64,000 nt of DNA, taken from NCBI RefSeq assembly GCF_014117265.1, contig NZ_CP059833.1:2325069-2389068 (forward strand), given 5' to 3'. Numbering within the stretch: the first letter of the stretch is position 1; every line of letters starts with the position of its first letter. Positions 4,039 to 60,211 of the stretch are shown here, in pieces. Under the pieces are notes generated by a model, which worked only from the letters and a program-made list of their open reading frames with translations, was not told the DNA's origin and did no database searches. The translations under genes and the position numbers were made by a program. The stretch comes from Corynebacterium hindlerae. GTDB taxonomy: Bacteria > Actinomycetota > Actinomycetes > Mycobacteriales > Mycobacteriaceae.

Positions 4039-5555
4039 GGCAGTTTTCCTAACTTACCGAGGGCAATCCCATCGGTACGCACATCCGGGCTCACCCCGGT
4101 GATGTTGTCACGAGAGACCACGATATTGGGGAAGTTAAACAACGTGTCCGCGGCGGCAGCATCCATGATCTGATCCACTGCCTCGCCCATGTACTGCTGA
4201 AACTCCTCAGGGGTTCCCACGTCCGCCTTGGTGAACAACTCCGTGGTGGCTGGGTTGTCATATCCCAGGTAGTAGCCCGGCGCGAACAGCGTGGTGAGGT
4301 CACGCGGTTCCACATGCGCGATCAGCGACATGTCATAGTCCTTGCCTTTGTGCACCTGCGACAACCACACTGCGGGGAATTCCACGGACTGGATGGTGAC
4401 GTCCAGGCCGACATCCCACAGCTGGGACACCACCAGCTCAGAGATAGCGGTGGCGTAGGGCAGTGACGGGACAGTGAACGTGATGTCATTGTTGTCGTCG
4501 GAGATTCCGGCTTCTTTCAGCAGCTCGCGGGCTTTTGCGGGATCAAAAGGGTATTGGTTGGAAGGCTGGAACCACGGGTCGGTCGGTGGTACGGGAACAC
4601 CACCGGTGTCTTGGCCGTAGCCGTCCCAGGCGGTGTCGATCACGGCCTGACGGTCAATGGCATGCATGACGGCTTGGCGCACACGTACGTCGTTGAAGGG
4701 GGCGCGCTGGTTATTCATAGAGAGCAGCACTTCACCGTTGGTGGTGCCCACCGCCACATGGTAATTGCCGCGGGCGCGGAGGACGTCGATAAGCTCGGGC
4801 GACTGCATTGCCCACACCACGTCCACGTCGCCAGACTGCAGGGCGTTCGTCGCACCCACCGCGTCGGCGAAGTAGCGGATGGCCGCGGTGCGGTTTGGGG
4901 GCTGGTCACCCCAGTAATCCGGCCGGGCGGTGAACGTCAGCGACTGCCCGATCGCCCAGTGCTCAACCCGGTAGGGGCCGGTGCCTATCGGCTCAGACGC
5001 TAGCTTATCGACGCCATGAGGCGTCATCATTGCCCCGACGAAAGTCCCCATCGCCCACAACCATTGATTACTGGGGCGTTCCAGCGTGACTTTGAGAGTG
5101 AGCTCGTCTAGTACTTCGGTGGCTTGTACCACCTTCATCTGGGATTTGAGTCCATTGGTCCAGGCGTCGGATGAGACCCGGTCAATGGAAAACTTGGCGG
5201 TGTGGGCGGTGAACGTATCGCCGTTGGAGAACGTGACACCTTCGCGCAGGTGGAAGACATACTCTGTGCCATCCGCTGAGCGTTCCCAGTGGGTAGCCAA
5301 CAGGGGAGCAATGTCGCCGTTATCGTCGATCTGCACCAAGCCCTCATAGACGTTCTTCATCAGCGCACCTGGGATCGCGGCACCGGCAGTTCGGGTGAAA
5401 TCGAGGGAAGCTGGTGGGCCAAAGGTTGCCACGACAACCGCATCCTCATCGGCAGTACGGCCAATTCCAGTGGCGGTGCTGCCCGCAGAACACGCGCTGA
5501 CCAGCACAGTTGTGGCAAGCGCTAGGGTGGTGAGGGCGATGCGGAAATGGCGCAT
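4035..5555 (-). CDS. peptide ABC importer, extracellular substrate-binding lipoprotein
   Basis: A 506-residue SBP family 5 protein and the first gene of the importer operon. The N terminus is a lipoprotein signal with lipobox LVSAC and Cys22 as the lipid-modified residue, so the mature protein is anchored outside the cytoplasmic membrane. Family features include HLREGVTFSNGD, the segment around EPIGTGPYRVEHW and, further on, VRQAVMHAIDRQ. It captures a peptide-like ligand and delivers it to the two permeases. The operon promoter should lie in the short gap shared with the divergent gene at 5647. Ligand unknown; peptides, opines or nickel complexes are possible for this family. Confidence 0.9.
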   Translation of the reverse strand: MRHFRIALTTLALATTVLVSACSAGSTATGIGRTADEDAVVVATFGPPASLDFTRTAGAAIPGALMKNVYEGLVQIDDNGDIAPLLATHWERSADGTEYVFHLREGVTFSNGDTFTAHTAKFSIDRVSSDAWTNGLKSQMKVVQATEVLDELTLKVTLERPSNQWLWAMGTFVGAMMTPHGVDKLASEPIGTGPYRVEHWAIGQSLTFTARPDYWGDQPPNRTAAIRYFADAVGATNALQSGDVDVVWAMQSPELIDVLRARGNYHVAVGTTNGEVLLSMNNQRAPFNDVRVRQAVMHAIDRQAVIDTAWDGYGQDTGGVPVPPTDPWFQPSNQYPFDPAKARELLKEAGISDDNNDITFTVPSLPYATAISELVVSQLWDVGLDVTIQSVEFPAVWLSQVHKGKDYDMSLIAHVEPRDLTTLFAPGYYLGYDNPATTELFTKADVGTPEEFQQYMGEAVDQIMDAAAADTLFNFPNIVVSRDNITGVSPDVRTDGIALGKLGKLP

Positions 5556-5633
5556 GTAATTCCACTCTCATTGTGAGGACTAGACACGCAACATTATAGG
5601 GATGCGGTACCCGATCCTTAACCCAGGGTGGTT

Positions 5634-5639
5634 TACACT
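5634..5639 (+). promoter_or_regulatory. -10 box TACACT of a leaderless transcript
   Basis: TACACT ends 7 bases before the GTG at 5647, and no ribosome binding site is present. The same spacing recurs at many genes in this window. Confidence 0.5.
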
Positions 5640-5646
5640 CACACCC

Positions 5647-6177
5647 GTGGCCCTTATCAAAGTAACGTCTCGATTCAGCGCCTTGCTGCGCTCGCCAGCT
5701 GCGCGCACGCTCGTAATCCTGACTGTGTTGCTTGCGCCGCTGACCTGGTTCCTCTACCGGGAATTCGAGGAAGCTACCAACAGCACCATTCGGGCCCTCT
5801 ACGCCGTAGGCGTGGCGGCGCCCGCATGCGGCATCGTGGTGGCAGTATTGAGTTTCATCGCTTTTGTGATCCGACGCCGACGGATCGTGCTTGAAGTAGG
5901 GGAGCAGGTCACGATCCCCGGCACCGGGGTCAGCTTCCCGCTAGCGGAGCTAGGCACCCTGCAGCTGTTTAGCAAAAACGGATACTCCTACATGGCCCTG
6001 TTGCCAGTCCACGTGACAGAGCGCTTGACGGCCCAAAGCGCCCGTAGTGGGCAGCACCACGTTCACGGCTACATTGTGGAATTTCCCGCACAGCCAACAA
6101 TTCACAGCTTCGAGCTAGCAGACGTCATTGTTGCTGCTCATGGCGATGTTCGAGTGGAAAAAATAGGCGCTGTGTGA
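5647..6177 (+). CDS. hypothetical membrane protein
   Basis: A 176-residue protein of unknown function. Two hydrophobic helices lie in the N-terminal half, roughly residues 21-36 and 50-75, separated by a short loop and followed by the basic patch RRRR. The rest is a soluble domain with a beta-rich look (VGEQVTIPGTGVSFPLAELG). This resembles small actinobacterial PH-like membrane proteins, but I cannot name a family. I chose GTG 5647 because TACACT lies 7 bases upstream; an in-frame ATG at 5602 would add 15 residues that overlap this promoter. It is divergent from the peptide importer operon. Confidence 0.6.
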   Translation: MALIKVTSRFSALLRSPAARTLVILTVLLAPLTWFLYREFEEATNSTIRALYAVGVAAPACGIVVAVLSFIAFVIRRRRIVLEVGEQVTIPGTGVSFPLAELGTLQLFSKNGYSYMALLPVHVTERLTAQSARSGQHHVHGYIVEFPAQPTIHSFELADVIVAAHGDVRVEKIGAV

Positions 6178-6266: not shown

Positions 6267-8123
6267 ATGGATTCCATCAAAGTGGTCGAACAGACCACTC
6301 CGGAGAACCCGAATGACAAGAGATTCCTCGGTCTGAAAACTGACCCGGTCGTCTTTCTGGTAGCCACCGGCTTCATCATCACCTTCGTCATCGGCACGAT
6401 TATCGCCGGTCAGAAAGCTCAGCTCGCGTTTACCAACATTGCTGGGGGATTGCTGACCAACCTGGGCTGGATGTACATCGGTGGTGTCTCGCTGGCATTC
6501 CTGTTCCTCATCGCGGTTTTCGTCTCCCGCTTCGGCCGAGTCAGACTCGGCGACGATGACGACGAACCAGAGCACTCCCTACCCGTGTGGTTTGCCATGC
6601 TGTTCGCTGGCGGCACCGGTGCGGTGTTGATGTTCTGGGGTGTTGCCGAGCCAATCAACCACTTTTACAACGTGCCTCGTGCCGACGTCGATTCGCAGAC
6701 GCAGGAAGCAGCCCGCGAAGCAATGGCGTTCACCTTCTACCACTTTGGCATCCACATGTGGGTGATCATGGTGTTGCCAGGGTTGGCGCTTGGTTACTTC
6801 ATCTATAAGCGCAAACTCCCGCCACGCCTGTCGTCGGTGTTCGCGCCATTGCTCGGCGCCCGTATCTACTCTACGCCAGGCAAGCTTATCGACGCCCTGG
6901 CCATCATCGGCACGGTCTTCGGTATCGCGGTCTCTGTTGGCTTGGGCGTGCTGCAAATTAATGCTGGCTTGAACAAGCTGTACGGTGTGCCGGAAATCAG
7001 CTGGGTTCAGCTCGGAATTCTGCTGGTGCTCACCGTTATCGCCTGCGTGTCTGTGGCCTCCGGCCTGGATAAGGGCATTAAAATCCTCTCGAACATCAAC
7101 ATCGCTATGGTTGTGGTGTTCCTGGGATTCGTCTTGGTAGCGGGGCCAACCCTTACCCTGCTGCGCGGCACGATCGAAGCCTTCGGTATCTACGCGGAAG
7201 AGCTGCCAGAATTGATGTTCTGGACGGATTCCTTCCACCAAAACCCTGGCTGGCAGGGCAAATGGACTGTGTTTTACTGGGCATGGACGATCTGCTGGTC
7301 CCCATTCGTGGGCCTCTTCGTCGCCCGTATTTCTCGTGGCCGCACCGTCCGTGAATTCATCGCCGGCGTGCTGGCGCTGCCCACCATTTTTGCTGTGGTG
7401 TGGTTCGCGATCTTCGGTCGCGCGGGCCTGGAGCTAGAATTTGCTGACCCAGGATTTTTGACCAAGCCTGTCGTAGAAGACGGCGATGTCCCTGCCGCCT
7501 TGTTCAAATTCCTGGAAGCGTACCCGCTCACTGCGATCGTCGCTCCAGTCGCGTTGGCAATCGTCGTCATTTTCTTCATCACGTCTATTGACTCCGCCGC
7601 AATGGTGACAGACATGATGTCCACCGGTGAAGAGAACAAATCCCCAACGTCCTACCGAGTGTTGTGGGCGCTGCTCATCGGTGCCGTCGCAGGTGCGTTG
7701 CTGCTGATTTCCCCAGAAACCGGCATTGCCACACTGCAAGAGGTTGTCATCATCGTGGCCCTGCCGTTCTTCCTCATGCAGTTCGTCATGATGTACTCGC
7801 TGATCAAAGGCATGACAGATGACTCTGCCGCCCGACGTCGCGTTGTGACCCGACAATGGGAGAAGACTGATACCGCTGAAAAGCTGGAAGCACACGAAGC
7901 TCTCCCTGCCCCTGGCTACGACGAAGAAGGCAACGAACTGCCAGTGCTGCGCTACGAACATGACGACGAAGGTCGCATCGTCATCGCAGGTGACGTGGTG
8001 ATCGCCGGCGACCTCGGGGTGGTCGGTGACGTGGACGAAGACCCACTGTCAGAATCCAAGCCCGCCATTGGCGACAGCCACCGCATCATCGAATCGATGT
8101 CCCCCAAAGGACGTGACGAGTAA
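6267..8123 (+). CDS. BCCT-family osmolyte (betaine/ectoine/proline-type) transporter
   Basis: A 618-residue sodium- or proton-coupled carrier with about 12 membrane helices. The family signature is clear: YWAWTICWSPFVGLFVARIS followed by RGRTVREF. Family members import compatible solutes such as glycine betaine, ectoine or carnitine during osmotic stress. The glycine-rich helix that lines the substrate site reads AGGTGAVLMFWGVAEP, differing from the GMGIG seen in BetP. A long acidic C-terminal tail (about residues 515-618) contains VIAGD twice in IVIAGDVVIAGDLGVVGDV. Length and long tail fit corynebacterial EctP/LcoP better than BetP. A ribosome binding site AGGAAG precedes the ATG. Confidence 0.85.
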   Translation: MDSIKVVEQTTPENPNDKRFLGLKTDPVVFLVATGFIITFVIGTIIAGQKAQLAFTNIAGGLLTNLGWMYIGGVSLAFLFLIAVFVSRFGRVRLGDDDDEPEHSLPVWFAMLFAGGTGAVLMFWGVAEPINHFYNVPRADVDSQTQEAAREAMAFTFYHFGIHMWVIMVLPGLALGYFIYKRKLPPRLSSVFAPLLGARIYSTPGKLIDALAIIGTVFGIAVSVGLGVLQINAGLNKLYGVPEISWVQLGILLVLTVIACVSVASGLDKGIKILSNINIAMVVVFLGFVLVAGPTLTLLRGTIEAFGIYAEELPELMFWTDSFHQNPGWQGKWTVFYWAWTICWSPFVGLFVARISRGRTVREFIAGVLALPTIFAVVWFAIFGRAGLELEFADPGFLTKPVVEDGDVPAALFKFLEAYPLTAIVAPVALAIVVIFFITSIDSAAMVTDMMSTGEENKSPTSYRVLWALLIGAVAGALLLISPETGIATLQEVVIIVALPFFLMQFVMMYSLIKGMTDDSAARRRVVTRQWEKTDTAEKLEAHEALPAPGYDEEGNELPVLRYEHDDEGRIVIAGDVVIAGDLGVVGDVDEDPLSESKPAIGDSHRIIESMSPKGRDE

Positions 8124-8151
8124 CTAGCTGCGAGCTGGTTGGTTGAGGTGT

Positions 8152-8335: not shown

Positions 8336-9721
8336 CTATACGGTTGGTAGCTCTGCTTTTGCGTCTTCGCGGAAGATGACTTCTTCCTTTGGGCGTTTGA
8401 AATCAACTGCGAGGCCGATCGCAGCGGCGATCACCACGGGGACAACCCAGCCGAGATCCATGCTGTGCATTGGGGACCAGCCGATCATTGGCTCGATGAT
8501 GTTTGAGCCCCAGCCCAGGGAGTTGAAGCTCATCAGGGCTGCCCAGATGGTGGCAACCGGCAGGGCCAGCTTGAACACGGTGTTGATGCGCCGTCCGAAC
8601 ACTGGCTCCAGCAGGACTAGGAAGATCAGTGCGATGGCTGGTGGGTAGAGGAAGCCGATGATGGGGCCGGCCACAGCGAGTACCGCATCAAGGCCCATGA
8701 TGGACAAGGCGATGGCGATGAGGGTGAACAGGACGGCCCAAATGCGGTAGGACACGCCAGGCATGAGGTGGTTGAAGAACTCAGAGGTGGCGCCGATCAG
8801 GCCGACTGCGGTGGTGAGGCAGGCGAGGAGAACGATCGCGCCGAACACGATCATGCCGGGCTGCCCCATGGTGAGCTTGGCGGCGTCGGCAAGCAGCGAT
8901 GCACCATTTTCGTACTTGCTTGGGTCCGGAATCACCTGGCCGATCACGCCGAGGCCCACGTAGATCACGGCGAGCAGACCACCAGCGATCACAGCAGCGG
9001 TGGAGACCCCGCGGACGAGGGTGTTGCCTTCTGGGAAGCCCTTGTATCGCAGGGCGTTCACGACCACGATGCCGAAGGCGAGCGCTGCGAGGGAGTCCAT
9101 GGTCAGGTAGCCCTCGACTAGGCCGCTGGCAAGTGGGTGCGCGGCGTAATCTTCACCAACCGTGCCCGGGGTGCCATCCAGCTTGACCATGGACAACACG
9201 ACCAGCACCACCAGCAGGATCAGTAGCAGTGGAGTCAGGGCCCTGCCCAGGGCGTCCACGATGCCGGCAGGGTTCAGTGCCAGCGCCAGTGCGATGCCGA
9301 AGAAGATGATGGAGAATACCGCGTTGGCGCCGGTGCCGCTGACCCCAGCGATGGGGACGATAGCGGTCTCAAAGCTAACAACGCCGGTGCGTGGCAGGGC
9401 GTAGAAGCAGCCGATGGACAGGTACACCAGTACCGGGAAAATAAGACCGAAGATGGAGCCGCCCCGTTTTGCCAGGTCTTGGACGTTGTTACCGGTCAGC
9501 GCAATCGCGATCACACCGACGACGGGGAGAGCGACACCGGCGAGGCAGAAACCAATGATGGCTGGCCAGAAGCTGGTGCCGGAGTTCACGCCGAGCATCG
9601 GCGGGAAGATGAGGTTTCCGGCGCCGAAGAACATAGAGAAGAGCATGAAGCTCGTCGTGAGGATGATGGTGGCACGCGACCTACTGCTCAGTGTGGCGGT
9701 AGTGGAGTCCGCGTTGGTCAT
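8336..9721 (-). CDS. brnQ: branched-chain amino acid carrier BrnQ
   Basis: A 461-residue LIVCS-family transporter with about 12 membrane helices. The N-terminal FSMFFGAGNLIFPPMLG is the family hallmark, and YLTMDSLAALAFGIVV is also typical. It imports leucine, isoleucine and valine coupled to sodium. A ribosome binding site AAAGG sits six bases before the ATG. It forms a single-gene unit convergent with the BCCT carrier and is separated from it by repeat A and hairpins. No regulatory leader was recognised upstream. Confidence 0.93.
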   Translation of the reverse strand: MTNADSTTATLSSRSRATIILTTSFMLFSMFFGAGNLIFPPMLGVNSGTSFWPAIIGFCLAGVALPVVGVIAIALTGNNVQDLAKRGGSIFGLIFPVLVYLSIGCFYALPRTGVVSFETAIVPIAGVSGTGANAVFSIIFFGIALALALNPAGIVDALGRALTPLLLILLVVLVVLSMVKLDGTPGTVGEDYAAHPLASGLVEGYLTMDSLAALAFGIVVVNALRYKGFPEGNTLVRGVSTAAVIAGGLLAVIYVGLGVIGQVIPDPSKYENGASLLADAAKLTMGQPGMIVFGAIVLLACLTTAVGLIGATSEFFNHLMPGVSYRIWAVLFTLIAIALSIMGLDAVLAVAGPIIGFLYPPAIALIFLVLLEPVFGRRINTVFKLALPVATIWAALMSFNSLGWGSNIIEPMIGWSPMHSMDLGWVVPVVIAAAIGLAVDFKRPKEEVIFREDAKAELPTV

Positions 9722-9860: not shown

Positions 9861-11705
9861 CTAGGACTTAAATCCAAATTTTTGGAGCTTTCTGCGATTT
9901 TCCAGGGAGTCTTCGGCGGTGAGGGCCAAAAGCTCAGCATAAATACCACCCGTTTGGGCGAGTTCGGCTGGGCTACCAACTTCGTCAACACGGCCATCAA
10001 CCAGGGTGATGATCTTGTCCACACTCGCGATAGTCGACAGCCGGTGCGCAATGATCATGGTGGTACGACCCACCATCAACTCGTCCAGGCCCTTCTGCAC
10101 CGCGCGCTCCGCCTTGGTATCGAGCGCCGACGTGGCCTCGTCCAGCACCAGCACCGGCGCGTCCTTGAGGATCGCGCGGGCCACCGCCACGCGCTGCTTC
10201 TGGCCACCGGACAGACGAAGTCCGCGCTCACCGATGACGGTGTCGTAGTCGTCGGCAAACTTTGTGATGAACTCGTGTGCATTCGCTTTCCTCGCGGCGT
10301 CCAGGATCTCTGCCTCGCTCGCCCCCGGGCGACCATAGGCGATGTTCTCCCGGATCGTGCCGGAAAACAGCGCCGCCTCCTGGAACACCACACCCACGGA
10401 TGCGCGTAGCGTGGCGTTGTCCAGTTCCGCGACATCGCGCCCGCACACGGTCATGCTGCCGGAACTCGGCCGATACAGCCCCAACAGCAGATTCACCAGG
10501 GTGGATTTGCCACCACCCGACTCACCGACCAATGCGATCCGCTCCCCGGCCGTCGCAGAGAAGGTCACGTCGTGGATGACCTGCTCGTCGGTGTAGCCGA
10601 AGCTCACACTGTTAAAACCGATCACCGGTTCGTCGGGGCGCGGGGTGAGGGGCTGAGCTTGCTCGGGCGCCAGCTCCGGTGCTGAGCTTGCCGACGTCGC
10701 AGCCAACAGTTGCTTATTCGCCGTCGGCTCCGGGACCTGCGCCATCACCTCAAAGTAGTCCTTGGAACCCGCCACAGCGCGCTGCGCCGTGTCCACGAGG
10801 TAGCTCATCATGAACACCGGTTGTTTTGCCATGTTGATGAGCTGCAGCAGCAACACCAGGTCGCCCAACGTGAAGTAGCCGTGGAGGGTGCGGTAGAACA
10901 GCACGGCATAGATGCCGAAGAACACCAGGTTTAGGGCGCTGCCACGTGCGAAATCCATGGTGTGCCAGTAGCGGGACTGCTGCCGGGTCAGCGACACCGT
11001 GCGAGCATACCGGGCACCGAACCCGCCTAACTCGCGCAGCTCGGAGACGAAGGATTTGACCACCTTCACCTGGCCCACGACCTCCGCGAAGCGACCACCG
11101 GCTTGGTCGATTTCGCTGTTTTTCTCGCCTTCAATGCGCTGCCACTTCTTGGAGGTCAGGGTTGTCAGCCACATGTACAGCGGGAAAATGATGGCCAGGA
11201 GTGCCGCCAGCGGCCAGTAGTACCACCCTGTGATCGCCAGCACCGCGACGGTGGTGATGAGCATGGGGAAGAAGTTGTTGGAAAAGGACTGGAGGAATTG
11301 AGTGATCGACGTGATCGACCTGTCCAGGCGTGCGATTATCGTGCCGGTCACCTGGTTATCAAAGTATTTCTGCGGCAGGCTGAGCAACCGGGCGAAATAC
11401 CGTGTGGAGAGAATCTGACGCATCCGGGCCGCCATCACATCGCCCACGTATCCGCCCAGATTGTGGATGGTGGTGTTGGCCAGCTCCGCGACTAGCAACG
11501 CCACCGCGAGCATGACAATGGTTCGAGTGACGCTGTCTGGGGTGACCTCACCACTGACAGCGGACACGATCGTGTTGGTGGCTGACCGCAGAATAAACGG
11601 CGTGACCAGCGACAGCGCCGCCACCGATACCGAGGCGCAAATGACGCCGAGATAAAAGGGCCAGAGAGCGGAAGTGCTCCGCAAGATTCGAGCTAAAGAA
11701 CGCAC
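9861..11705 (-). CDS. ABC exporter half-transporter (membrane domain fused to ATPase)
   Basis: A 614-residue protein with an N-terminal six-helix exporter membrane domain (about residues 15-310) and a C-terminal ATPase. The ATPase has Walker A GESGGGKST, signature LSGGQKQRV and Walker B VLVLDEATSALD, followed by the H-loop in IIAHRLSTIA. All motifs are intact, so it should work as a homodimer or with a partner. An Ala/Pro-rich linker (residues ~325-350) joins the domains. The start is GTG, preceded by GGGAAAG. Substrate unknown; lipids, drugs or peptides are all possible for this family. Divergent from the lipoprotein gene at 11796. Confidence 0.88.
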   Translation of the reverse strand: MRSLARILRSTSALWPFYLGVICASVSVAALSLVTPFILRSATNTIVSAVSGEVTPDSVTRTIVMLAVALLVAELANTTIHNLGGYVGDVMAARMRQILSTRYFARLLSLPQKYFDNQVTGTIIARLDRSITSITQFLQSFSNNFFPMLITTVAVLAITGWYYWPLAALLAIIFPLYMWLTTLTSKKWQRIEGEKNSEIDQAGGRFAEVVGQVKVVKSFVSELRELGGFGARYARTVSLTRQQSRYWHTMDFARGSALNLVFFGIYAVLFYRTLHGYFTLGDLVLLLQLINMAKQPVFMMSYLVDTAQRAVAGSKDYFEVMAQVPEPTANKQLLAATSASSAPELAPEQAQPLTPRPDEPVIGFNSVSFGYTDEQVIHDVTFSATAGERIALVGESGGGKSTLVNLLLGLYRPSSGSMTVCGRDVAELDNATLRASVGVVFQEAALFSGTIRENIAYGRPGASEAEILDAARKANAHEFITKFADDYDTVIGERGLRLSGGQKQRVAVARAILKDAPVLVLDEATSALDTKAERAVQKGLDELMVGRTTMIIAHRLSTIASVDKIITLVDGRVDEVGSPAELAQTGGIYAELLALTAEDSLENRRKLQKFGFKS

Positions 11706-12317: not shown

Positions 12318-13783
12318 AGCCGCCCTTCTTCTCGCAGCCTGGTCAGCACGTTGTCAGCGCTGATCAGGCACATCGGGAGCCCAACGCCAGGAGTGGTGGT
12401 GGCGCCAGCAAAATACAGCCCAGCTACTTTCGCAGTGGCGTTGCTGCCTCGCAGGAACGCCGATTGACGCAGGGTGTGTGCCAACCCAATCGCGTTGCCC
12501 TGCCAGGCGTGATAGCGCTCAGCAAAGTCCGTCGGGGCGATGCTGGCACGCGTGACGACGTTCCCCGCAATCGAGGTGCCGGTGCGGGCGTCGATAAGCG
12601 CGATAGTGCGATCGATGATCTGCTCGATGTGCGGGTCGCCGGCAGCGCCAAAATCCTCCCGCGCGGACACCGGGATCAGCACGAAAACATTAGAGTGCCC
12701 GGCAGGTGCACAATCCGGGTCAGTAGCCGACGCCTTGCATACATAAATCGAGCGGGATACCCCAGAACCGGAATCCAAGGCCGTGAAGTCCTCGTCCCAG
12801 TCGGCGTTAAGCAACAACTGGTGGTGCACCAGCTCCGGTAGCTCGCCTCGCACTCCCAGCAGCGCCACCACACAACTAATTCCCGGATCTTTGCGACTCC
12901 ACTTGATACTGCGTTGCTCCGGGCGAAGCAACATCTCTGTGTGATGCATATCCGCAGCAGAAACCACAATGTCAGCGGGAATATGTTCCCGGCCGTGCTC
13001 GGTGCGCACCCGCACCCCAGTAACTTTCTTGGCACAGGTGATTTGTTCCACCTCGGTGGCGGTTCGGATCTGCACCTTGTTCTGGCGGGCCAGCTCGGCA
13101 ATCACAGCGATGAGCTGAGAAAAACCGCCCATGGGGTAGCGCACGCCCTCCACCAAATCCGTGTGGGAAAGCAGGTGATACATCGCCGGGGTTCGCTTCG
13201 GGGCGCTGGAGAGGAATACCGCCGGATACTCCAACACCTGGCGGATCCGAGGGTCTGTGAAATCCCGGGATACCCACTGGTGCAAATTCAACGTCAGTAG
13301 CTGCGCCAACAGCGCGAGATTACCCAGTATGGGGCGCGTCATAAACGGCCATAGGGAGCTGAACGTGGTGTACAAAAAGGAGTCCACTGCCACTCGGTAC
13401 GTCAAGGACGCAGTATCTAAATATTCGCGGGTCTTTTCGCCCGCGCCGGGCTCGAAGGATTCGAACAGCTCCGGGGCGTGGCCCGTTGTTACATCGAAAG
13501 GCTCATGACCTTCCGGAAACACGCGATAAGCAGGGGAGAGATCCACCAAGTCCAGCTGTTCTGCGGTGGATGTGCCCACGGAGGCAAAAAACCTGTCGAA
13601 GGCTTCCGGCATGAGGTACCAGCTCGGGCCCGTATCAAAGACGAACCCGTCCTGCTCGAGGCGTCCCGCCCGCCCGCCTAGCTCCGGGTTTTTCTCCACC
13701 AGTGTCACGTCGAGGCCTTCGTGACCGAGCAGGGTGGCCGTCGCTAAGCCAGCTATGCCACCTCCAATAACCACTGCACGCAT
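12314..13783 (-). CDS. crtI: phytoene desaturase CrtI
   Basis: A 489-residue FAD-dependent oxidoreductase. The dinucleotide-binding motif VIGGGIAGLATATLLGHEG is at residues 5-23, followed by EKNPELGGRAG. The C-terminal motif GLYFAGATTTPGVGLPMCLI is the bacterial-type phytoene desaturase signature. It converts colourless phytoene to lycopene (or a related polyene) at the membrane. The gene starts inside the crtB stop codon (TAATG), so the two are translationally coupled. No crtE or cyclase gene follows: the next gene is convergent. Confidence 0.93.
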   Translation of the reverse strand: MRAVVIGGGIAGLATATLLGHEGLDVTLVEKNPELGGRAGRLEQDGFVFDTGPSWYLMPEAFDRFFASVGTSTAEQLDLVDLSPAYRVFPEGHEPFDVTTGHAPELFESFEPGAGEKTREYLDTASLTYRVAVDSFLYTTFSSLWPFMTRPILGNLALLAQLLTLNLHQWVSRDFTDPRIRQVLEYPAVFLSSAPKRTPAMYHLLSHTDLVEGVRYPMGGFSQLIAVIAELARQNKVQIRTATEVEQITCAKKVTGVRVRTEHGREHIPADIVVSAADMHHTEMLLRPEQRSIKWSRKDPGISCVVALLGVRGELPELVHHQLLLNADWDEDFTALDSGSGVSRSIYVCKASATDPDCAPAGHSNVFVLIPVSAREDFGAAGDPHIEQIIDRTIALIDARTGTSIAGNVVTRASIAPTDFAERYHAWQGNAIGLAHTLRQSAFLRGSNATAKVAGLYFAGATTTPGVGLPMCLISADNVLTRLREEGRL

Positions 13784-15286: not shown

Positions 15287-16432
15287 CTACGCTCCGATCA
15301 GGCGCTTGACTGCCTCCAGCGGGATGTGTAGCCAATCCGGTCGGTTGTTGGCCTCATACACCACTTCGTACAGGGCTTTGTCCAGGACGAGGGCGTCGAG
15401 AAGCGGGCTGGCCTGCGCCCCGTAGGCCTCCAGCATGGCAGCGGCACAATCCGCAGCCCAGCCCTCTGGATCCGCCAGATTGGAACCAAAGTGGGCGGCG
15501 TAACCGAACGACCTGATGAAGCCCGCTAGGTCTTGCAGCGGGGAGAACATCTGCCTGCGCTCGGCCAGTGGCCGGGCGGGCTCTCCCTCGAAGTCAATCA
15601 GCAAGTATTTATCCTGGGTGCGTAGGATTTGGCCCAGGTGAGCGTCGCCATGAATGCGCTGCACCGTGGCTGTCCCCGTTGCTGCCCGGGCGTACAACTC
15701 CCGGATGGCAGGCTCGAATGGACGCAACACCTCGGCTTGAGCGATCAGTGATTCCAATCGATCTGACAGCCCCTCCACTAGGGACGCTGCGGCCACCTGC
15801 TCCGTTCCGAATGCTGTGGTCAGGTCCCGGTGGACTGCGCTCAGTGCCGTCCCGATCAGGCCTGCTTCCTCGGTAAACGGCTGCATGTCTGTGGCGTAGT
15901 GTAGGGCGAGATCCCACCCTTCGCGGGAGCCGGCGGCGAAATCCTGCACCATGGCCGTGACATAGGTGTCCCCCGACCACTCGATGGTGGAATACGCGCG
16001 CAGGGCCGGGACGTATTTGCAGCCAACGTGGGATAGCCCAGAGAGCAACTCGACATCGGGGTTGATTCCTGGCTCCAGTTTGCGGAAAATTTTAGCTATC
16101 GCCGGGGATTCACCGGAGAAGATCACGGAGGAATTCGACTGCTCGGCGGCCGAGATCTTCACCGACCCATCCTCCGGAACGACAGGGCGGGACAGCACCT
16201 CGAGTTCTCCCATGCCGAAGGCCTGCTCCGCCAGGAATGCGTCCCGCAGTGCCGCGAGTTCATCTGGCAGCACGTCGTCGTCGCCGGAGAGCACCAGCTG
16301 GTACAAGTCACCGTCGATGTCGGCCAGCACCCAGCGAGCGTCGCCCACTGGGGTGGATTGCAGCTGGGTCAGTGAGGTGATTCCGGCTTGTTTGGACCGG
16401 AAAAAGCGTTGTGCGGCAAGGTTTTCGTACAC
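15287..16432 (-). CDS. mak: maltokinase (maltose-1-phosphate forming)
   Basis: A 381-residue kinase of the aminoglycoside-phosphotransferase fold. The catalytic loop is RIHGDAHLGQIL and the metal-binding segment LIDFEGEPARPLAERR, both diagnostic of Mak/Pep2. It phosphorylates maltose using ATP; the product feeds GlgE alpha-glucan synthesis in relatives. At 381 residues it is shorter than the mycobacterial enzyme of roughly 450, mostly through a brief N-terminal region. Start codon is GTG. It follows treS by 14 bp in the same direction, which matches the TreS-Mak pathway. No glgE is in the window. Confidence 0.92.
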   Translation of the reverse strand: MYENLAAQRFFRSKQAGITSLTQLQSTPVGDARWVLADIDGDLYQLVLSGDDDVLPDELAALRDAFLAEQAFGMGELEVLSRPVVPEDGSVKISAAEQSNSSVIFSGESPAIAKIFRKLEPGINPDVELLSGLSHVGCKYVPALRAYSTIEWSGDTYVTAMVQDFAAGSREGWDLALHYATDMQPFTEEAGLIGTALSAVHRDLTTAFGTEQVAAASLVEGLSDRLESLIAQAEVLRPFEPAIRELYARAATGTATVQRIHGDAHLGQILRTQDKYLLIDFEGEPARPLAERRQMFSPLQDLAGFIRSFGYAAHFGSNLADPEGWAADCAAAMLEAYGAQASPLLDALVLDKALYEVVYEANNRPDWLHIPLEAVKRLIGA

Positions 16433-16446: not shown

Positions 16447-18198
<1,752 letters not shown>

Positions 18199-22084: not shown

Positions 22085-22086
22085 TG

Positions 22087-32107: not shown

Positions 32108-32653
32108 TTGAGCATCGAGGTTTTCAACGAATCCGGTTACCCGGGGGTCAATGAGGAGATGCTCATCGACGTCGCCTCCTACGCCCTCACCCGCATGGAC
32201 ATTCACTCCGCAGCCGAGATGAGCCTGCACATCGTCGACCTAGACACCATCGCTGACCTGCACGTACGCTGGTTGGACCTCGAGGGTCCCACCGACGTCA
32301 TGAGCTTCCCCATGGACGAGCTCACCCCGGGTTCCGGCCGCCCCGATGCCGCTCCGATGGGACCCGCCATGCTCGGCGATATCGTGCTGTGCCCAGAGTT
32401 CGCTGAAAAACAAGCCGCCAAAGCGGGGCACGACCTCGGCCATGAGCTGTGCCTGCTGACCGTCCACGGGTGCCTGCACCTGCTGGGATACGATCACATC
32501 ACCCCAGCTGAGGAGCAAGAAATGTTCGCGCTCCAAAACGAACTTCTGGCGGACTGGTATGAGGACGTCGATAAGCGCGGCGTGACGTACCAGCCGAAGC
32601 CGACCGGACCCGGTGCCTTCCCTAGCGCGGCAGATCGCGAGCAGTTGGGCTAA
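32108..32653 (+). CDS. ybeY: endoribonuclease YbeY (16S rRNA maturation)
   Basis: A 181-residue zinc-dependent endoribonuclease that acts in 16S rRNA 3'-end maturation and ribosome quality control. The metal site [11 protein letters not shown] is complete, and DVMSFPM is the family's other signature. I chose TTG 32108, one base after the phoH stop, because it gives [10 protein letters not shown], the expected N terminus; a longer in-frame start would lie within phoH. Its stop overlaps the next start (TAATG). Confidence 0.93.
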
Positions 32654-44161: not shown

Positions 44162-44394
44162 CGGGTTTCTACCCGTACCCCGAGGTCGCGGCACACATTA
44201 GCCAGGGCCGTGTAGTCGGCGATCTGCAGGCGGCAGCCTTTTAATACGAGTGCGGCTAGGTGGGCGTCGCGCACGAAGTCAGCGAAGCCGTCGAGGTTTC
44301 GCGGGGTGGGCTGGTGCGCGCCGGCCACCAGGGCAAAAAGCTGGGGGAGAGTGGTGGCGCGGCGGGCGTCGATAAGCAGCGTTTTATTCGGCAT
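44158..44394 (-). CDS. barstar-family ribonuclease inhibitor
   Basis: A 78-residue protein of the barstar fold. NKTLLIDARRATTLPQLF matches the first strand and helix, and PRNLDGFADFVRDA corresponds to barstar's NLDALWD inhibitory helix with its key acidic residues. The start codon (44394) is inside the end of the RNase gene (11-bp overlap), so the inhibitor is made together with the enzyme it should neutralise. This is the usual arrangement that protects the cell from its own secreted ribonuclease before export. Confidence 0.85.
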   Translation of the reverse strand: MPNKTLLIDARRATTLPQLFALVAGAHQPTPRNLDGFADFVRDAHLAALVLKGCRLQIADYTALANVCRDLGVRVETR

Positions 44395-47086: not shown

Positions 47087-47890
47087 ATGATTGAAATAGG
47101 TATCGTTGGGGCGTTGGTAGCGGGGGTGTTTTCGCTGCTTAGCCCGTGTTCGGCGTTGCTGCTACCGGCGTTTTTCGCGTACGCGTTCAGCTCGAAGCGT
47201 CAGCTTGTGGCCCGTACCGCCGTATTTTTCCTGGGGCTTGCGGCGGTGCTTGTCCCGCTCGGTGCAGGTGTGGGGTGGTTCGGGCAGGCGCTGTTGGTGC
47301 ACCGTTCGACGCTGATCTTGATCGGTGGCCTCATGATGATCCTCTTCGGCATCATCTCTTTCTTCGGCAAAGGCTTCAACATTCCAGGCCTGTCCCGCCT
47401 CAACAGCCGAGTGCGTGGCACAAGCTGGCTGGCGGTATGTGCGCTAGGTGCGGTGTACGGCTTCGCGGGCTTTTGTGCTGGCCCGCTGCTCGGCGCGGTG
47501 CTCACCACTGCCCTTGTCTCCACCAGCGCGCTTTATGGTGCCCTCATCATGGCGATGTATGCGCTGGGCATGGTAGTGCCCCTGTTTCTGCTGGCGTGGG
47601 CGTGGGACGCACGCAAGCTTAACGACGCCCGCTGGCTCCGAGGCCACGAATTCTCCGTTGGATCGCTTCGGCTAAACAGTATTTCGATGGCTTCCGGGCT
47701 GTTGTTTATTGCTATCGGGGTACTCTTTATCCGCACGAACGGAACCACCGGACTGCCCAGTTTCTTAAGTGTTGAGGCGCAGCACGCAGCGCAGACCTGG
47801 GTGCTGCAGAATCAGCTGATCATGGTGCTCGGGGTGCTAATGCTATGCCTGATTGGGGCAGTAGTGGCTTTTGTGAAATCCGAGAAGTGA
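47087..47890 (+). CDS. CcdA/DsbD-type transmembrane thiol-redox protein
   Basis: A 267-residue membrane protein with six or more hydrophobic helices. The two redox cysteines of the CcdA family appear in LLSPCSALLLPAFFAYAF (helix 1) and YGFAGFCAGPLLGAVLT (helix 4). Such proteins carry reducing power across the membrane for cytochrome c maturation or extracellular thiol repair. Start ATG 47087 is leaderless by its -10 spacing. No ccs genes are adjacent, so the downstream partner is unknown. Confidence 0.82.
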   Translation: MIEIGIVGALVAGVFSLLSPCSALLLPAFFAYAFSSKRQLVARTAVFFLGLAAVLVPLGAGVGWFGQALLVHRSTLILIGGLMMILFGIISFFGKGFNIPGLSRLNSRVRGTSWLAVCALGAVYGFAGFCAGPLLGAVLTTALVSTSALYGALIMAMYALGMVVPLFLLAWAWDARKLNDARWLRGHEFSVGSLRLNSISMASGLLFIAIGVLFIRTNGTTGLPSFLSVEAQHAAQTWVLQNQLIMVLGVLMLCLIGAVVAFVKSEK

Positions 47891-49830: not shown

Positions 49831-50628
49831 ATGAGTTTCTTTGCTGGCCTGGAAAACTGGCCGGTAGACAATGTGTCCGCCGGCCTTGTTGGTGTTCATG
49901 ATGAAACCTTTGGTGATATTGACCGAGTGTATGAGTTGGCCAGCGTCACAAAGCTCCTGAGCGCCTACGGTTTCCTCGTCGCGTTGGAAGAGGGCGTGTT
50001 TGAACTAGATACCCCGATGGGGCCGGCGACAGTCGAGCACCTGCTCGCCCATGCCTCCGGCGTTGGCTTTGCCACCCGTGAGAGCGAGCGGGCCCCGGAG
50101 GATCGGCGCATCTACTCTTCTTCGGGCTTTGAGATTCTGGCTGACGGCGTCGAAAAGCTAGCTGGCATCGCCTTTCCCGACTACCTGCGCGAGGCCGTCT
50201 TTGAACCGCTGGGCATGACGGCCACGCAGTTTCACGCGTGGGCGGGGCACGGCGCAAAGTCGACGGTGCGGGACCTGCAGCGGTTCGCCACCGAGCTGCT
50301 GTCGCCGCAGCTTATCGACGCCACCACCCTCCATGACGCGTTCACCCCACACTTCCCGACGCTGGCCGGCATCGTGCCAGGCTATGGGCGTCAGGTGCCC
50401 TGCCCGTGGGGCTTGGGCTTTGAAATCAAGGGAGAGAAATCGCCTCACTGGACGGGGCCTTCGATGCCTGCGGAAGTGGTGGGGCACTTCGGGCAGGCCG
50501 GCACGTTTTTGTGGGTGCATCCCGAATCGGGGCACGGCTGCGTGGTGCTCACGAACCGTGTGTTCGGTGATTGGGCTAAACCGCTATGGTCTGATTTCAA
50601 TGAACAGCTGTGGCTAACCCTGAACTAA
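49831..50628 (+). CDS. serine hydrolase, beta-lactamase/PBP-like
   Basis: A 265-residue class C beta-lactamase-fold protein. The catalytic SxxK is in LASVTKLLSAYGFLVA, and a YSS triad (RIYSSSGFEIL) stands in place of YxN. The third motif is probably the HFGQAGTF segment near the C terminus. No signal peptide is present, so it is likely cytoplasmic and acts as an esterase or peptidase rather than a beta-lactamase. Leaderless start. Confidence 0.82.
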   Translation: MSFFAGLENWPVDNVSAGLVGVHDETFGDIDRVYELASVTKLLSAYGFLVALEEGVFELDTPMGPATVEHLLAHASGVGFATRESERAPEDRRIYSSSGFEILADGVEKLAGIAFPDYLREAVFEPLGMTATQFHAWAGHGAKSTVRDLQRFATELLSPQLIDATTLHDAFTPHFPTLAGIVPGYGRQVPCPWGLGFEIKGEKSPHWTGPSMPAEVVGHFGQAGTFLWVHPESGHGCVVLTNRVFGDWAKPLWSDFNEQLWLTLN

Positions 50629-50788: not shown

Positions 50789-51106
50789 TTGACTACATTT
50801 GTCACCCACGCACCCGTTGCCTGCACCGCGGTGCTGCTTATCGACGCCATGCCCCGGAAACTGCGGCCCGATGTCGAAGAACTCATGGTGCGTTGCATTC
50901 CCAGCGCGCCCGAATTAGAAATCCCCGGGATCGACCCACTCGAGGCCGCATGGTTCACCCGCTGGGAGCGTTCCATTCTGCCTGGAACCATCGGAACGCG
51001 CCAGGTTATCACTGGGACCGCTGAAGAACTAGAGCTGTTTATGCGCGAGCTGACGCAGTTGCGCCAGCGCTACGAGTTCGACGTCTCAATGCGGTTAGTG
51101 GACTAA
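50789..51106 (+). CDS. hypothetical 105-residue protein
   Basis: A TTG start with AAAGGA about six bases upstream, beginning MTTFVTHAPVACTAVLLIDA. The protein is soluble and acidic, with an amphipathic helix near the end (EELELFMRELTQLRQRYEF). I do not recognise it. Its stop overlaps the convergent acyl carrier protein gene by 4 bp. The 160-bp gap upstream shows no clear promoter. Confidence 0.5.
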   Translation: MTTFVTHAPVACTAVLLIDAMPRKLRPDVEELMVRCIPSAPELEIPGIDPLEAAWFTRWERSILPGTIGTRQVITGTAEELELFMRELTQLRQRYEFDVSMRLVD

Positions 51107-51351
51107 CTTTCGCGATGTTCGTCGATAAAAGTGACGAAGTCCCCGACCGTCGTAAAGCCTGCTGCGTCCTTATCTCCGATGTACACTCCGAAGGCGTCCT
51201 CGGCGCGGACCGCGATCTCTACAATGGAGAGAGAATCCACCGCGAGGTCGGAGACGATGTTGGACTCGAGGGAGACATCGTCAGGGTCATATCCAGTGCT
51301 TTCAACGATGATGTTGCGAAGCGTAGTGAACGTACTCTGAGAGTCAGACAT
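51103..51351 (-). CDS. acpM: acyl carrier protein
   Basis: An 82-residue acyl carrier protein. The phosphopantetheine attachment serine is in the motif VDSLSIVEIAVRAEDAFG, and the four-helix pattern is intact. It carries growing acyl chains as thioesters. No fatty-acid synthase gene is adjacent; corynebacteria mostly use the large FAS-I enzyme, so this stand-alone carrier may serve another acyl pathway. Divergent from the alpha/beta hydrolase gene, with about 60 bp between them. Confidence 0.92.
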   Translation of the reverse strand: MSDSQSTFTTLRNIIVESTGYDPDDVSLESNIVSDLAVDSLSIVEIAVRAEDAFGVYIGDKDAAGFTTVGDFVTFIDEHRES

Positions 51352-56123: not shown

Positions 56124-57035
56124 GTGCACGCAATAGCAATTATTGGCGGATTGACGCTGGACCGAATTTTTGGAGACCCGCAGCGTTATCACCCGGTCGC
56201 CTACTTCGGCACCGCGGTGACCAAAGCGGAGAAGATTTTGTACCGAGACGCCAAAGCTGCGGGAGCTGCGCTGGTCGCGGTGACGACACTGCCCGTCGTC
56301 ATGGCAACGCATGCGGTTTATCGAAAAGCTCCCACGGTCACGACAGCACTTGCACTGTGGGCTGCGTTGGGAGGGCGCACCCTTGAGGAAACTGGCCGCA
56401 AATTGGCGCAGGATCTGGACAACAACGATCTTGACTCAGCTCGCGCTTGGATCCCGTGGCTGTGCTCTCGCGACCCACATTTGCTCGATAAAGCGGGCAT
56501 GGCCCGCGCCGCTGTGGAGTCCATCGCCGAGAACACGTCGGATGCAGCGATCGCTCCGATCGTGTGGGCAGCCATCGCCGGGGCGCCGGGCGTCGTGCTG
56601 CACCGGTGTGTGAACACGCTGGATGCGATGGTCGGGTATAAAAGCGAGAAGTACCGGAATTTTGGTTGGGCAGCAGCCAAGCTTGACGACGTCCTTGCCT
56701 ACCTTCCTGCTCGTCTCACCGCAGTAACGCATGTTGTGTTAGCAAAGGACAAACAGGCTGCGATCGCCGCCTGGAAGAACGACGCCCCGCAGCACCCCAG
56801 CCCCAATGCCGGCCCTGTGGAAGCGACAGCAGCCGTGGCGCTCGGAGTTCAACTTGGGGGAGAGACTCACTACTCATACGGGGTAGAAATGCGACCAACC
56901 TTGGGAACCGGTCCTCGCCCAACAGCACAAACGATTTTTGAGGCCGTACAGCTGGCACAGCGAACTCAGCTGATTATGGGGGCAGTAGCCGTCGGACTGC
57001 GGAGCCTCATTTTTCGGGGTGGTAACAAAATTTAG
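56124..57035 (+). CDS. cbiB: adenosylcobinamide-phosphate synthase CbiB/CobD
   Basis: A 303-residue membrane protein with several hydrophobic segments, which joins aminopropanol (phosphate) to adenosylcobyric acid in cobalamin synthesis. Family motifs: GLTLDRIFGDPQRYHPVAYFG at the N terminus, SIAENTSDAAIAPIVWAAIAG, and NTLDAMVGYKSEKYRNFGWA. The start is GTG 56124, 7 bases after TTACCT. In relatives it lies beside SURF1 and the phosphatase pair, as here. Few other cobalamin genes are in view, so it may support salvage. Confidence 0.9.
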   Translation: MHAIAIIGGLTLDRIFGDPQRYHPVAYFGTAVTKAEKILYRDAKAAGAALVAVTTLPVVMATHAVYRKAPTVTTALALWAALGGRTLEETGRKLAQDLDNNDLDSARAWIPWLCSRDPHLLDKAGMARAAVESIAENTSDAAIAPIVWAAIAGAPGVVLHRCVNTLDAMVGYKSEKYRNFGWAAAKLDDVLAYLPARLTAVTHVVLAKDKQAAIAAWKNDAPQHPSPNAGPVEATAAVALGVQLGGETHYSYGVEMRPTLGTGPRPTAQTIFEAVQLAQRTQLIMGAVAVGLRSLIFRGGNKI

Positions 57036-57098: not shown

Positions 57099-57986
57099 CT
57101 AGAACTTCTCCTCATCATCGCGCTGCCAGCTGGTTCGATGATTTTTGGCGTTGCCGTAGCGGCTGCGGCGCGGAGCAGGTGCCGAAGAAGGAGCAGGCGC
57201 AGGGGAGCGGACTTCCCCAGTAGTCAGGGCTTCCTGTTCTTCCTGTTCACGGCTACGTTCGCGCAGTTCGGCGAACACAAAGTAGCCAAGGCCGATGGGG
57301 GCGAGGATGCCGAAGGCTATCCATTGGATGCCGTAGGACAGGTGGGGGCCGTTGTCGAGCCTTGGGAGTGGGAAGGCGGTGAGGACTCCGGGTTCGCCGT
57401 CGGCAAGCTGCACGTAGTCTTGGGCTAGCGTTACGCCGGTGAGCTCGGAGATCTCTTCGGTGTCGATGCCGGTGACCATTTGGCGGTCGGCTTCGATGGT
57501 GGGGGCGATCTGTGGCTTGGGCTCGTCGATGCGGGCGTAGCCGACGATGGTGTGTTCGCCTGTCGGTGGGGCGGGGAAGTCGCTGGGCAGGTGCCCGTTT
57601 TCGGGGCGAGTCCATCCGCGGTTGACCAAGACGGTCGTGCCGTCGGTCATCATGAACGGGGTGAGGGCGTGGTACGCGGGCCCGGATTCGACGGGGCGCA
57701 CGCGCATGATCACTTCGCTTTCGGGCAGGTAATGCCCGGTAATGGCGACGCGAAGGTATTCGTTGTCTGGGGGGAGTACCCCGCCAGCGGTAAAGACGGA
57801 ATCGAAGGGGGCTGGTTCCTTGTCAAAGTGCTCCGCGATCAGATCATTCCGGTGGCTCACTACCTCGCTTTTACCTAGCTGCCACGGGGCAAGCACAGTG
57901 AAAGCCACGTACGTGAAGGTGATGATGAGGATGAAGGTGAAAATCCACCCGGGGTTCAGGAATGCTTTCCACGCTTTGCCGTTCAT
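57099..57986 (-). CDS. SURF1-family cytochrome oxidase assembly protein
   Basis: A 295-residue protein with two membrane helices (about residues 13-33 and 222-240) around an extracellular domain. SURF1 hallmarks: RPVESGPAYHALTPF, VLVNRGWTRPE and the second helix HLSYGIQWIAFGILAPIG. The C-terminal tail is charged and Ala/Pro-rich. It assists maturation of haem-copper oxidase. It is followed by the phosphatase genes on the opposite side of its start (12-bp gap), all in one minus-strand cluster. Confidence 0.9.
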   Translation of the reverse strand: MNGKAWKAFLNPGWIFTFILIITFTYVAFTVLAPWQLGKSEVVSHRNDLIAEHFDKEPAPFDSVFTAGGVLPPDNEYLRVAITGHYLPESEVIMRVRPVESGPAYHALTPFMMTDGTTVLVNRGWTRPENGHLPSDFPAPPTGEHTIVGYARIDEPKPQIAPTIEADRQMVTGIDTEEISELTGVTLAQDYVQLADGEPGVLTAFPLPRLDNGPHLSYGIQWIAFGILAPIGLGYFVFAELRERSREQEEQEALTTGEVRSPAPAPSSAPAPRRSRYGNAKNHRTSWQRDDEEKF

Positions 57987-59160: not shown

Positions 59161-59181
59161 ACACTCCAGTCTGGCAGACAA

Positions 59182-59187
59182 TAAAGT
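59182..59187 (+). promoter_or_regulatory. -10 box TAAAGT of the aminotransferase gene
   Basis: TAAAGT ends 7 bases before GTG 59195. A minus-strand TATTGT lies directly beside it for the divergent HAD gene. Confidence 0.45.
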
Positions 59188-59194
59188 GGAACGG

Positions 59195-60211
59195 GTGAGT
59201 GTTCCTGACCCCTACCGTTTCCACGGCGACAGTGAAGCCATTGGCGCCACCACCGATTTCGCGGTCAACGTCCGCGGCGCCAAACCGCCTGAGTGGCTAC
59301 AGCGCGTGCTTATCGACGCCCTGAGCGACCTCGCCCAGTACCCCAGCGAATCGGATACCAAGCTCGCTAAAAGAGCGATTGCGCAGCTCCACGACGTCCC
59401 AGAAGAATCAGTGCTGCTGCTCTCCGGAGCCTCAGAAGGATTCACGATGCTGCCGAAGCTGGCGCCGCGCCACGTCGCCATCATCCACCCCGGGTTCACT
59501 GAACCCAACGCTGTCTTCGCCGAAGCGGGGATCGACGTCCGCAACGTGATCGTGCCACCGCCGTTCGAACTGGATGTGGTGCTCGACCTCGGGGACTCGG
59601 ACATGGTAGTAATCGGAAACCCGACCAATCCGACGGGCGTGCTACACGACAAGGGGGACCTACTGGAACTAGGGGCCGGACGGACCCTCGTGGTCGATGA
59701 AGCATTCCTCGACGTGACCGACGAATCCGAAAGCCTCACTACAGAAGCAGCACAGCGCGAGGACGTGATCGTGATCCGAAGCTTCACCAAAACCTGGGCG
59801 CTAGCCGGATTGCGCTGCGGGTATCTGATTGCGCATCCACGGGTCGTCGATAAGCTTGCTGCGGGGCGACCACACTGGCCACTGGGCACGCTACAACTGC
59901 GAGCCATGGCGGCGATCGCCCTGGCCGCCCGCGACGAAACCGAAAAGGAACGCGGCATCATCGCAGCCGAACGCGCCACCATGACAGAAGCGCTCGGGCG
60001 CGCCGGATTCGAAATCGTCTCCGCAACCCAAGCCCCCTACGTGCTCGTACGCCCGCCAGGCGACGACCCAGAAGCACTCCGTATGAAACTACGTGACGCC
60101 GGGATCGCCATCAGACGCTGCGATACCTTCCCCGGCCTAGACTCGGGGTACTGGCGCCTGGCAGTGCGCCCCGCAAACTATGTGGCGAAGCTACTAAAGG
60201 AGTTGGCATGA
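59195..60211 (+). CDS. class I/II aminotransferase, CobC/HisC-like
   Basis: A 338-residue PLP enzyme. The substrate/cofactor region shows GNPTNPTGVLHDKG, VVDEAFLDVTD and the PLP lysine in RSFTKTWALAGLRCGY. This is the relative of mycobacterial Rv2231c, annotated as CobC (threonine-phosphate decarboxylase) or a histidinol-phosphate aminotransferase paralogue; the reaction cannot be settled from sequence. Its nearness to cbiB supports the corrinoid idea, since threonine phosphate supplies the aminopropanol. GTG 59195 was chosen from the -10 spacing; it gives VSVPDPYRFHGD. Confidence 0.85.
   Translation: MSVPDPYRFHGDSEAIGATTDFAVNVRGAKPPEWLQRVLIDALSDLAQYPSESDTKLAKRAIAQLHDVPEESVLLLSGASEGFTMLPKLAPRHVAIIHPGFTEPNAVFAEAGIDVRNVIVPPPFELDVVLDLGDSDMVVIGNPTNPTGVLHDKGDLLELGAGRTLVVDEAFLDVTDESESLTTEAAQREDVIVIRSFTKTWALAGLRCGYLIAHPRVVDKLAAGRPHWPLGTLQLRAMAAIALAARDETEKERGIIAAERATMTEALGRAGFEIVSATQAPYVLVRPPGDDPEALRMKLRDAGIAIRRCDTFPGLDSGYWRLAVRPANYVAKLLKELA

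Follow-up and report, generated by a model that had tools for sequence, protein, structure and literature searches.

The DNA under study is a 64-kb stretch (hereafter the window) of Corynebacterium hindlerae contig NZ_CP059833.1 (positions 2,325,069 to 2,389,068), in which an 11-base word, CGTCGATAAGC, recurs, with or without change at its centre, in genes such as malQ, ybeY and dnaG. All 13 positions at which the original prediction had placed the exact word were confirmed, seven on the plus strand and six on the minus strand, where 0.02 copies would be expected from dinucleotide shuffles and 0.03 from an order-3 Markov model. The claim that every one of them is coding is plausible: 11 lie in genes called with a codon model, and those at 44367 and 50836 fall only in small open reading frames (ORFs), which there read Leu-Ile-Asp. 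The 11-mer itself had to be abandoned as the unit, since its middle two bases (positions 6–7) are free, and the broader unit, (G)nCGTCGNNAAGC, is present 39 times in the window rather than 13 (Table 1).

The window's PhoH protein has its best named relatives in Corynebacterium, in keeping with the genus. In the whole genome to which the window belongs (G000, 2.68 Mb) the exact word occurs 281 times (142 + 139) against 4 (2 + 2) for its reversed control. A 464-kb sample of this genome, composed of the window and 20 evenly spread 20-kb stretches, holds 54 copies, with 0.27 (order-3) or 1.87 (order-5 Markov) expected. Among the one-mismatch neighbours of CGTCGATAAGC enrichment was found chiefly at positions 6 and 7 and more weakly at 8, 9 and 11; all 16 middles are present at least three times each in the sample, each above its expectation, AT being the commonest. 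With positions 6–7 left free the word, CGTCGNNAAGC, was counted 242 times in the sample (8.3 expected), 80% of the copies having a G two bases upstream, and 1366 times genome-wide (685 + 681) against 93 (44 + 49) for the reversed control, that is, about once per 2 kb. The recurring unit is nine strict positions around a free two-base middle. The absence of strand bias claimed originally holds for the exact word and for CGTCGNNAAGC alike.

Within the 464-kb sample 385 genes were called with a simple codon model, and their synonymous codons were shuffled within genes 100 times. The genes contain 217 copies (76 + 141), compared with shuffled means of 11.6 + 5.5 (about 17) and maxima of 19 and 13; the other 25 of the 242 copies lie outside, or only partly inside, called genes. 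The excess persists after codon control, and it is present in the rest of the genome and in related species (141 of 201 genomes), points on which the original prediction had been prepared to be corrected. CTT is, as it had stated, uncommon for Leu, making up 10% of the Leu codons of the sampled genes, and 121 of their 1248 CTT codons fall inside copies of the word. Because 178 of the 217 genic copies start at codon offset 2 (57 on the strand of the gene and 121 on the other strand), the remaining period-3 signals in the flanks are probably codon effects.

The word was counted in 201 Corynebacterium genomes (200 drawn, plus the window's own), a count of CGTCGNNAAGC at least three times that of the reversed control being taken as strong. 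This level is reached by 141 genomes, the weakest of which is G129 (115 copies against 27), and missed by 60, four of which (G041, G062, G132 and G195) attain 2.2–2.8 times the control. Among 151 genomes of the family, for which the exact word was counted, the 140 that belong to 30 other genera have at most seven copies each, and 58 loci from other genera and phyla (1.10 Mb) gave 21 CGTCGNNAAGC and no CGTCGATAAGC. Twenty-two loci (4.5–21 kb) of named Corynebacterium could be sorted into 12 with 4–16 copies of the CGTCG spelling (including C. pelargi, C. gallinarum, C. striatum and C. tuberculostearicum), two with 9–10 copies of a second spelling, CATCG, and eight with 0–2 of either (including C. 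jeikeium, C. glyciniphilum and C. kalidii). The commonest middle is AT in seven of 11 word-bearing genomes sampled (G000, G180, G049, G149, G029, G178 and G089); TC is favoured in G164 and G175 and AC or GC in G110, while G048, with seven copies in 40 kb, has too few to reveal a preference.

The second spelling, CATCGNNAAGC, is abundant in 10 of the 60 genomes weak in CGTCG, so that the "word-free" genomes are in part genomes of another dialect. Together with G143, which holds both spellings (1337 CATCG and 352 CGTCG), there are 11 such genomes, with 625–1337 CATCG copies each. Fifty of the 201 are strong in neither spelling, two of them (G073 with 213 and G084 with 159) having raised CATCG counts. 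In a tree of 44 genomes, obtained by a quick search from DEAH helicase, TopA and TadA, CGTCG is found throughout, and all 11 CATCG genomes fall in one clade (Shimodaira–Hasegawa-like approximate likelihood ratio test [SH-aLRT] 100) that also includes word-free G014 and a nested CGTCG group (G004, G109, G093 and G005), sister to three CATCG genomes (support 100); some of the intervening branches are supported at only 89–93. The simplest history would be that CGTCG is ancestral and that one switch to CATCG was followed by one reversal, parallel changes being possible too.

Three homologous locus pairs, each with one member from the CATCG group and one from its CGTCG sister group (77.1% identity over 55,977 columns), permit the two spellings to be compared site by site. 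Of 27 CATCG sites, 20 have a G at position 2 in the sister (background 16%); of 31 CGTCG sites, 19 have an A there (background 10%). By hand sums the letters at the other eight specified positions are conserved in 202 of 216 (94%) and 201 of 248 (81%) cases, respectively. The same places thus retain the word and differ in its spelling. Dialects that are specific to lineages and follow the phylogeny, as expected of the DNA uptake sequences (DUS) and uptake signal sequences (USS) of other bacteria, are present. Two further dialects hinted at by 40-kb scans are not claimed: a GAGC-ended one in G039, which looks compositional in 120 kb, and CGTCGNNGAGC in G195.

No clear uptake-like word emerged from small samples (20–40 kb) of G014, G010, G133, G147, G163, G054, G015, G033, G066, G084, G107, G128 and G148. 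Three genomes gave other signals. In G107 (L109, L110), which lacks the main word, a 12-base word around TTTTGCAGAGTT turns up in seven different kilobases of the 40 kb sampled, where about 0 would be expected, and is perhaps an intergenic repeat. G160 (L074, L093), also without the main word, has a weak excess of CGTCGNNNACAT (8 against 0.7 in 40 kb), which could be a diverged dialect. CCGCGnnCGCGG is found 46 times in 40 kb of G152 (L070, L091); this excess vanishes when it is counted once per kilobase, and the sequence is a local repeat array, perhaps a CRISPR (clustered regularly interspaced short palindromic repeats).

Between relatives of the same dialect (13 locus pairs, each scored from both sides, some loci being used more than once) the word survives in 184 of 273 cases; for the ten control words together the figure is 30 of 86. 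These totals include the pair L063/L059, which at 59% identity is apparently not collinear and keeps 0 of 18, and the pair L088/L089, in which retention of the word falls below that of the controls (10 of 28 against 4 of 8).

Spacing was analyzed in 22 stretches of the window's genome, with 254 copies, and in 20 loci from 10 further genomes, with 218. In 5-kb bins the counts are under-dispersed, the variance/mean being 0.57 and 0.63, respectively, with none of 1000 random placements as low; for CATCG genomes it is 0.68 (36 bins). Pairs in the same orientation less than 500 bp apart number 19 where 61 are expected (0 of 1000 as low), and those in opposite orientation 86 where 65 are expected (6 of 1000 as high). 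Because copies in the same orientation avoid each other over this distance and those in opposite orientation do not, the two orientations would seem to be read independently of each other, which is what directional entry of a single strand would produce. Leading/lagging bias is absent both with an origin placed near base 1 (132 against 122) and with the arms split at the GC-skew changes at about 0.2 and 1.55 Mb (120 against 134 by hand count). None of the close pairs listed are overlapping inverted pairs of the terminator type.

The poorest stretch of the genome sample (L019; G000:C1:1340001-1360000) holds one copy in 20 kb, with 0.36 expected from its own composition, and carries a prophage with terminase, portal, major head and tape-measure proteins. 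The portal protein finds its best phage counterpart, among the matches listed, in Gordonia phage Jace (42.5%). Phage phi16, whose host is C. glutamicum, has three copies in 50 kb (0.71 expected). Both the prophage stretch and phi16, which are two samples only, lie far below the word density of the host. Mobile DNA is not alone in being poor in the word, since L017 contains a word desert of about 9 kb at what looks, judged by eye from gene sizes and starts, like a ribosomal protein operon.

Host competence genes, as expected where DUS or USS are in use, are present, and are known here from the genes alone. The ComEC domain (PF03772) was detected in 201 of 201 genomes and the Tad ATPase (TIGR03819) in 198 at E <= 0.001, 192 of them over the curated cut-off; of 14 control genomes 13 match the latter at E <= 0.001 and only one exceeds the cut-off. 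Both being near universal, the presence of ComEC or Tad ATPase was rejected as the factor that separates genomes with the word from those without. comEA and comEC were both found in 20 of 20 com loci, and the DEAH helicase, TadF, Flp, TadC, TadA and Ssd in 20 of 20 tad loci; TadE was matched in 17 (not in the word-bearing G164 and G175, nor in G054) and TadB in 19 (not in G195). Nine of these tad loci come from genomes without CGTCG, three with CATCG (G111, G006 and G053) and six with neither spelling (G014, G152, G160, G195, G054 and G041). Natural transformation of another actinobacterium, Micrococcus luteus, is described with the tad ATPase and comEA genes among its competence genes (available text of PMC6667448). 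Two further features of these loci may be recorded: the ComEC region of the G195 com locus (L078) has one in-frame TGA, flagged by the genome search, and a repetitive surface-type protein of 2914 residues is encoded beside comEC in G180 (L059, 539-9283).

For the reader of the word we searched for residues that the CATCG genomes share, that are rare among the outer CGTCG genomes and that differ in the group that reverted. Among the proteins of two loci, ComEA has two fitting columns of 212 and ten other proteins five of 3234 (p = 0.06). The ComEA residues are Ser191 and Lys218 (G006 numbering), both in the C-terminal part, which we take for the helix-hairpin-helix domain. Among proteins of known structure ComEA is matched best by ComE operon proteins 1 (8dss, 8dfk). 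As dialect reader ComEA is a lead only.

That selection acts on the DNA word rather than on a protein motif, as was originally supposed, is backed by the synonymous shuffle, the recurrence throughout the genus, the conservation and the dialects at homologous sites, and maintenance of the word by selection or drive is supported by the sequence comparisons. Taken as a whole, its features are those of an uptake sequence that molecular drive maintains, and we infer uptake as their cause: CGTCGNNAAGC, which a G two bases upstream commonly accompanies, probably serves the genus Corynebacterium as its DNA uptake sequence. On this proposal a competence surface receptor, ComEA or a Tad (pseudo)pilin, would bind free DNA at the word, one strand would be brought in by the Tad pilus and ComEC, and RecA-dependent recombination would copy the incoming strand over the homologous gene. 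Fragments bearing the word would enter more often, by which the word would spread by drive to about one copy per 1–2 kb; a change in the receptor would change the favoured spelling, and the genome would then be rewritten site by site.

Among the four mechanisms offered in the original prediction uptake fits best, a Chi-like recombination signal is possible, and binding of a nucleoid protein and methylation are weaker. A Chi-like signal would be read in one orientation by a break-resection enzyme, here AdnAB, that then switches to recombination. The exclusion of same-orientation neighbours means that orientation matters, as it would for such a signal, and the abundance, conservation and scarcity in the prophage stretch are equally compatible with it. 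We nevertheless consider it unlikely: RecC (PF04257) was found in 0 of 61 genomes, with the E. coli control matching, so that RecBCD seems missing; known Chi sites are often strand-biased, whereas leading/lagging bias is absent under both assumed origins; Chi sites have 5–8 bases, for which nine specified bases are long; and mycobacterial AdnAB is reported not to obey Chi.

A binding site for a protein that organizes the nucleoid or segregates the chromosome would account for the spread over the whole genome and for a spacing more even than random on the 1–2 kb scale. Such proteins are usually slow to change, however, and here 50 of 201 genomes are strong in neither spelling and one clade is spelled differently; the word is moreover mostly coding and free of replichore bias, and orientation-specific exclusion would have no obvious reason, all of which makes this explanation improbable. 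Still less credit can be given to a recognition site for methylation or restriction. The word is bipartite and non-palindromic with a free middle and so slightly resembles a Type I site, but a gap of two bases is unusual for these, and some 1400 copies are at odds with restriction, which selects against its sites. Finally, on the strand of the gene 121 of the 217 genic copies encode Leu-X-Asp, as though the word arose merely from protein motifs or codon usage; this is refuted by the synonymous shuffle, which leaves a mean of 17 of 217, copies being found in all frames and on both strands and CTT making up just 10% of Leu codons.

Several observations weigh against an uptake sequence. Enrichment between genes is not seen, there being 25 copies in 70.6 kb of non-coding DNA and 217 in about 393 kb of genes. 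The number of copies in phi16 exceeds the phage's own expectation (3 against 0.7). Alternation of neighbours is not evident in the CATCG genomes (27 against 25), and clear co-variation with dialect was found in no protein tested, ComEA included. The comEA, comEC and tad genes are present also in genomes without the word, so the presence of the machinery does not track it. No report of natural transformation of Corynebacterium was found in the titles and opening lines of abstracts of open-licence papers. Listings of such papers likewise gave no account of this word, nor of any uptake sequence in Corynebacterium, and the 11-mer string occurs, on either strand, in at least five papers whose titles indicate no link with a genome motif. 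A survey of spaced motifs in 569 genomes gives, in its available part, only CRISPR pairs for Corynebacterium (PMC5217627).

Uptake words have been described, in the available text of PMC7811141, for Pasteurellaceae and Neisseriaceae, two Gram-negative families. The Corynebacterium word might represent the first such system in a Gram-positive lineage, genus-wide and with dialects, read by the Tad pilus and ComEA, with each orientation separate through directional single-strand entry and same-orientation exclusion as its footprint; in this specific form the proposal is tentative, and we would sooner expect some part of it to fail. If the word does serve uptake, biased natural transformation would shape actinobacterial genomes and restrict the partners in gene exchange, and the dialect differences at homologous sites would offer a view of genome rewriting by molecular drive and a handle on the receptor.

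Table 1. Copies of the word in the 64-kb window, as the exact 11-mer or with another middle (positions 6–7)
Copy	Coordinates	Strand	Remarks
Middle TA	121..131	-	
Middle AG	1892..1902	+	
Middle AA	1926..1936	-	close pair with 1892, opposite orientation
Middle AG	3234..3244	+	
CGTCGATAAGC	4784..4794	+	exact match
CGTCGATAAGC	5003..5013	-	exact match
CGTCGATAAGC	6884..6894	-	exact match
Middle GC	8884..8894	+	
Middle GC	10686..10696	-	
CGTCGATAAGC	12589..12599	+	exact match
Middle CT	13739..13749	+	
Middle AG	15394..15404	+	
Middle AG	17028..17038	+	
Middle GA	20245..20255	-	
Middle GA	21219..21229	-	
Middle CA	23738..23748	-	
CGTCGATAAGC	23853..23863	+	in malQ gene
CGTCGATAAGC	28023..28033	+	in hemN-like gene
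Middle GC	28095..28105	-	
CGTCGATAAGC	30437..30447	-	in RNA methyltransferase gene
CGTCGATAAGC	32566..32576	+	in ybeY gene
Middle GC	36462..36472	-	
Middle AG	36918..36928	-	
Middle TG	40003..40013	-	
Middle GC	41129..41139	+	
Middle TC	41966..41976	+	
CGTCGATAAGC	44367..44377	+	in small ORF 44158-44427, Leu-Ile-Asp
Middle AA	45521..45531	-	in dnaG gene
Middle TT	47617..47627	-	
Middle AA	50148..50158	+	
CGTCGATAAGC	50310..50320	-	exact match
CGTCGATAAGC	50836..50846	-	in small ORF 50789-51106, Leu-Ile-Asp
Middle TA	51148..51158	+	
Middle TC	56681..56691	-	
Middle GC	57398..57408	+	
CGTCGATAAGC	59308..59318	-	exact match
CGTCGATAAGC	59845..59855	+	exact match
Middle GC	61569..61579	+	
Middle AG	61745..61755	-	

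Two other repeat families were met in the sampled DNA. Intergenic repeats of the form CCCGAACTTCGGGAGGGTAATGTCGGGG / CAACCTCGGGGGCGTAATGTCGGGG, often in opposite-orientation pairs and clustered, lie at 47910-48030 of the window and also in L011 and L020-L024; GTAATGTCGGG, which forms part of them, has 21 copies in the 464 kb, all outside called genes. Intergenic hairpin repeats, AAACCCGGGAAGC...CCCGGGTTTC, are present at 8128-8280 and 22073-22225 of the window and in L010-L014 and L027, and AAACCCGGGAA, which belongs to them, was found 16 times in the 464 kb, again always outside called genes. These hairpins look like repetitive extragenic palindromic (REP)-type elements or terminators.

Among known iterated words, the Chi sites of RecBCD and AddAB are short, oriented, over-represented and scarce in phage DNA; the Corynebacterium word differs in being longer and without replication-strand bias, in a genus in which RecC was found in 0 of 61 genomes. 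HIP1 of cyanobacteria is a palindrome, highly iterated in many species of one group, and the present word is like it in iteration and unlike it in being non-palindromic and having dialects. The DUS of Neisseriaceae, which also has a longer form, is read by the minor pilin ComP, whereas Corynebacterium is a Gram-positive actinobacterium with Tad-type pilus genes and a putative receptor. Its word is, unlike that DUS, mostly coding, with a free two-base middle and same-orientation exclusion. The uptake words of Haemophilus and Neisseria are, by contrast, enriched between genes (available text of PMC1939737).

The USS of Pasteurellaceae has a mean spacing of about 1 kb and is relatively even (PMC7811141, in the part available), an evenness that it has in common with the Corynebacterium word. 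It has AT-rich flanks and overlapping inverted pairs that act as terminators (PMC7811141 and PMC1939737, likewise in part); the Corynebacterium word, in contrast, has one G as its flank, and the few close pairs listed do not overlap. According to the available text of PMC3630211, the DUS of Neisseriaceae is a 10-base word with about 1900 copies in the meningococcus and the gonococcus, eight dialects, one or more bases apart, are distributed along the phylogeny, one genome has two of them, and five genomes are without an obvious word. The Corynebacterium word resembles this system in its nine specified bases, its 1366 copies and its one-base dialect (CGTCG/CATCG), and G143, carrying both spellings, is the counterpart of the Neisseriaceae genome with two dialects.

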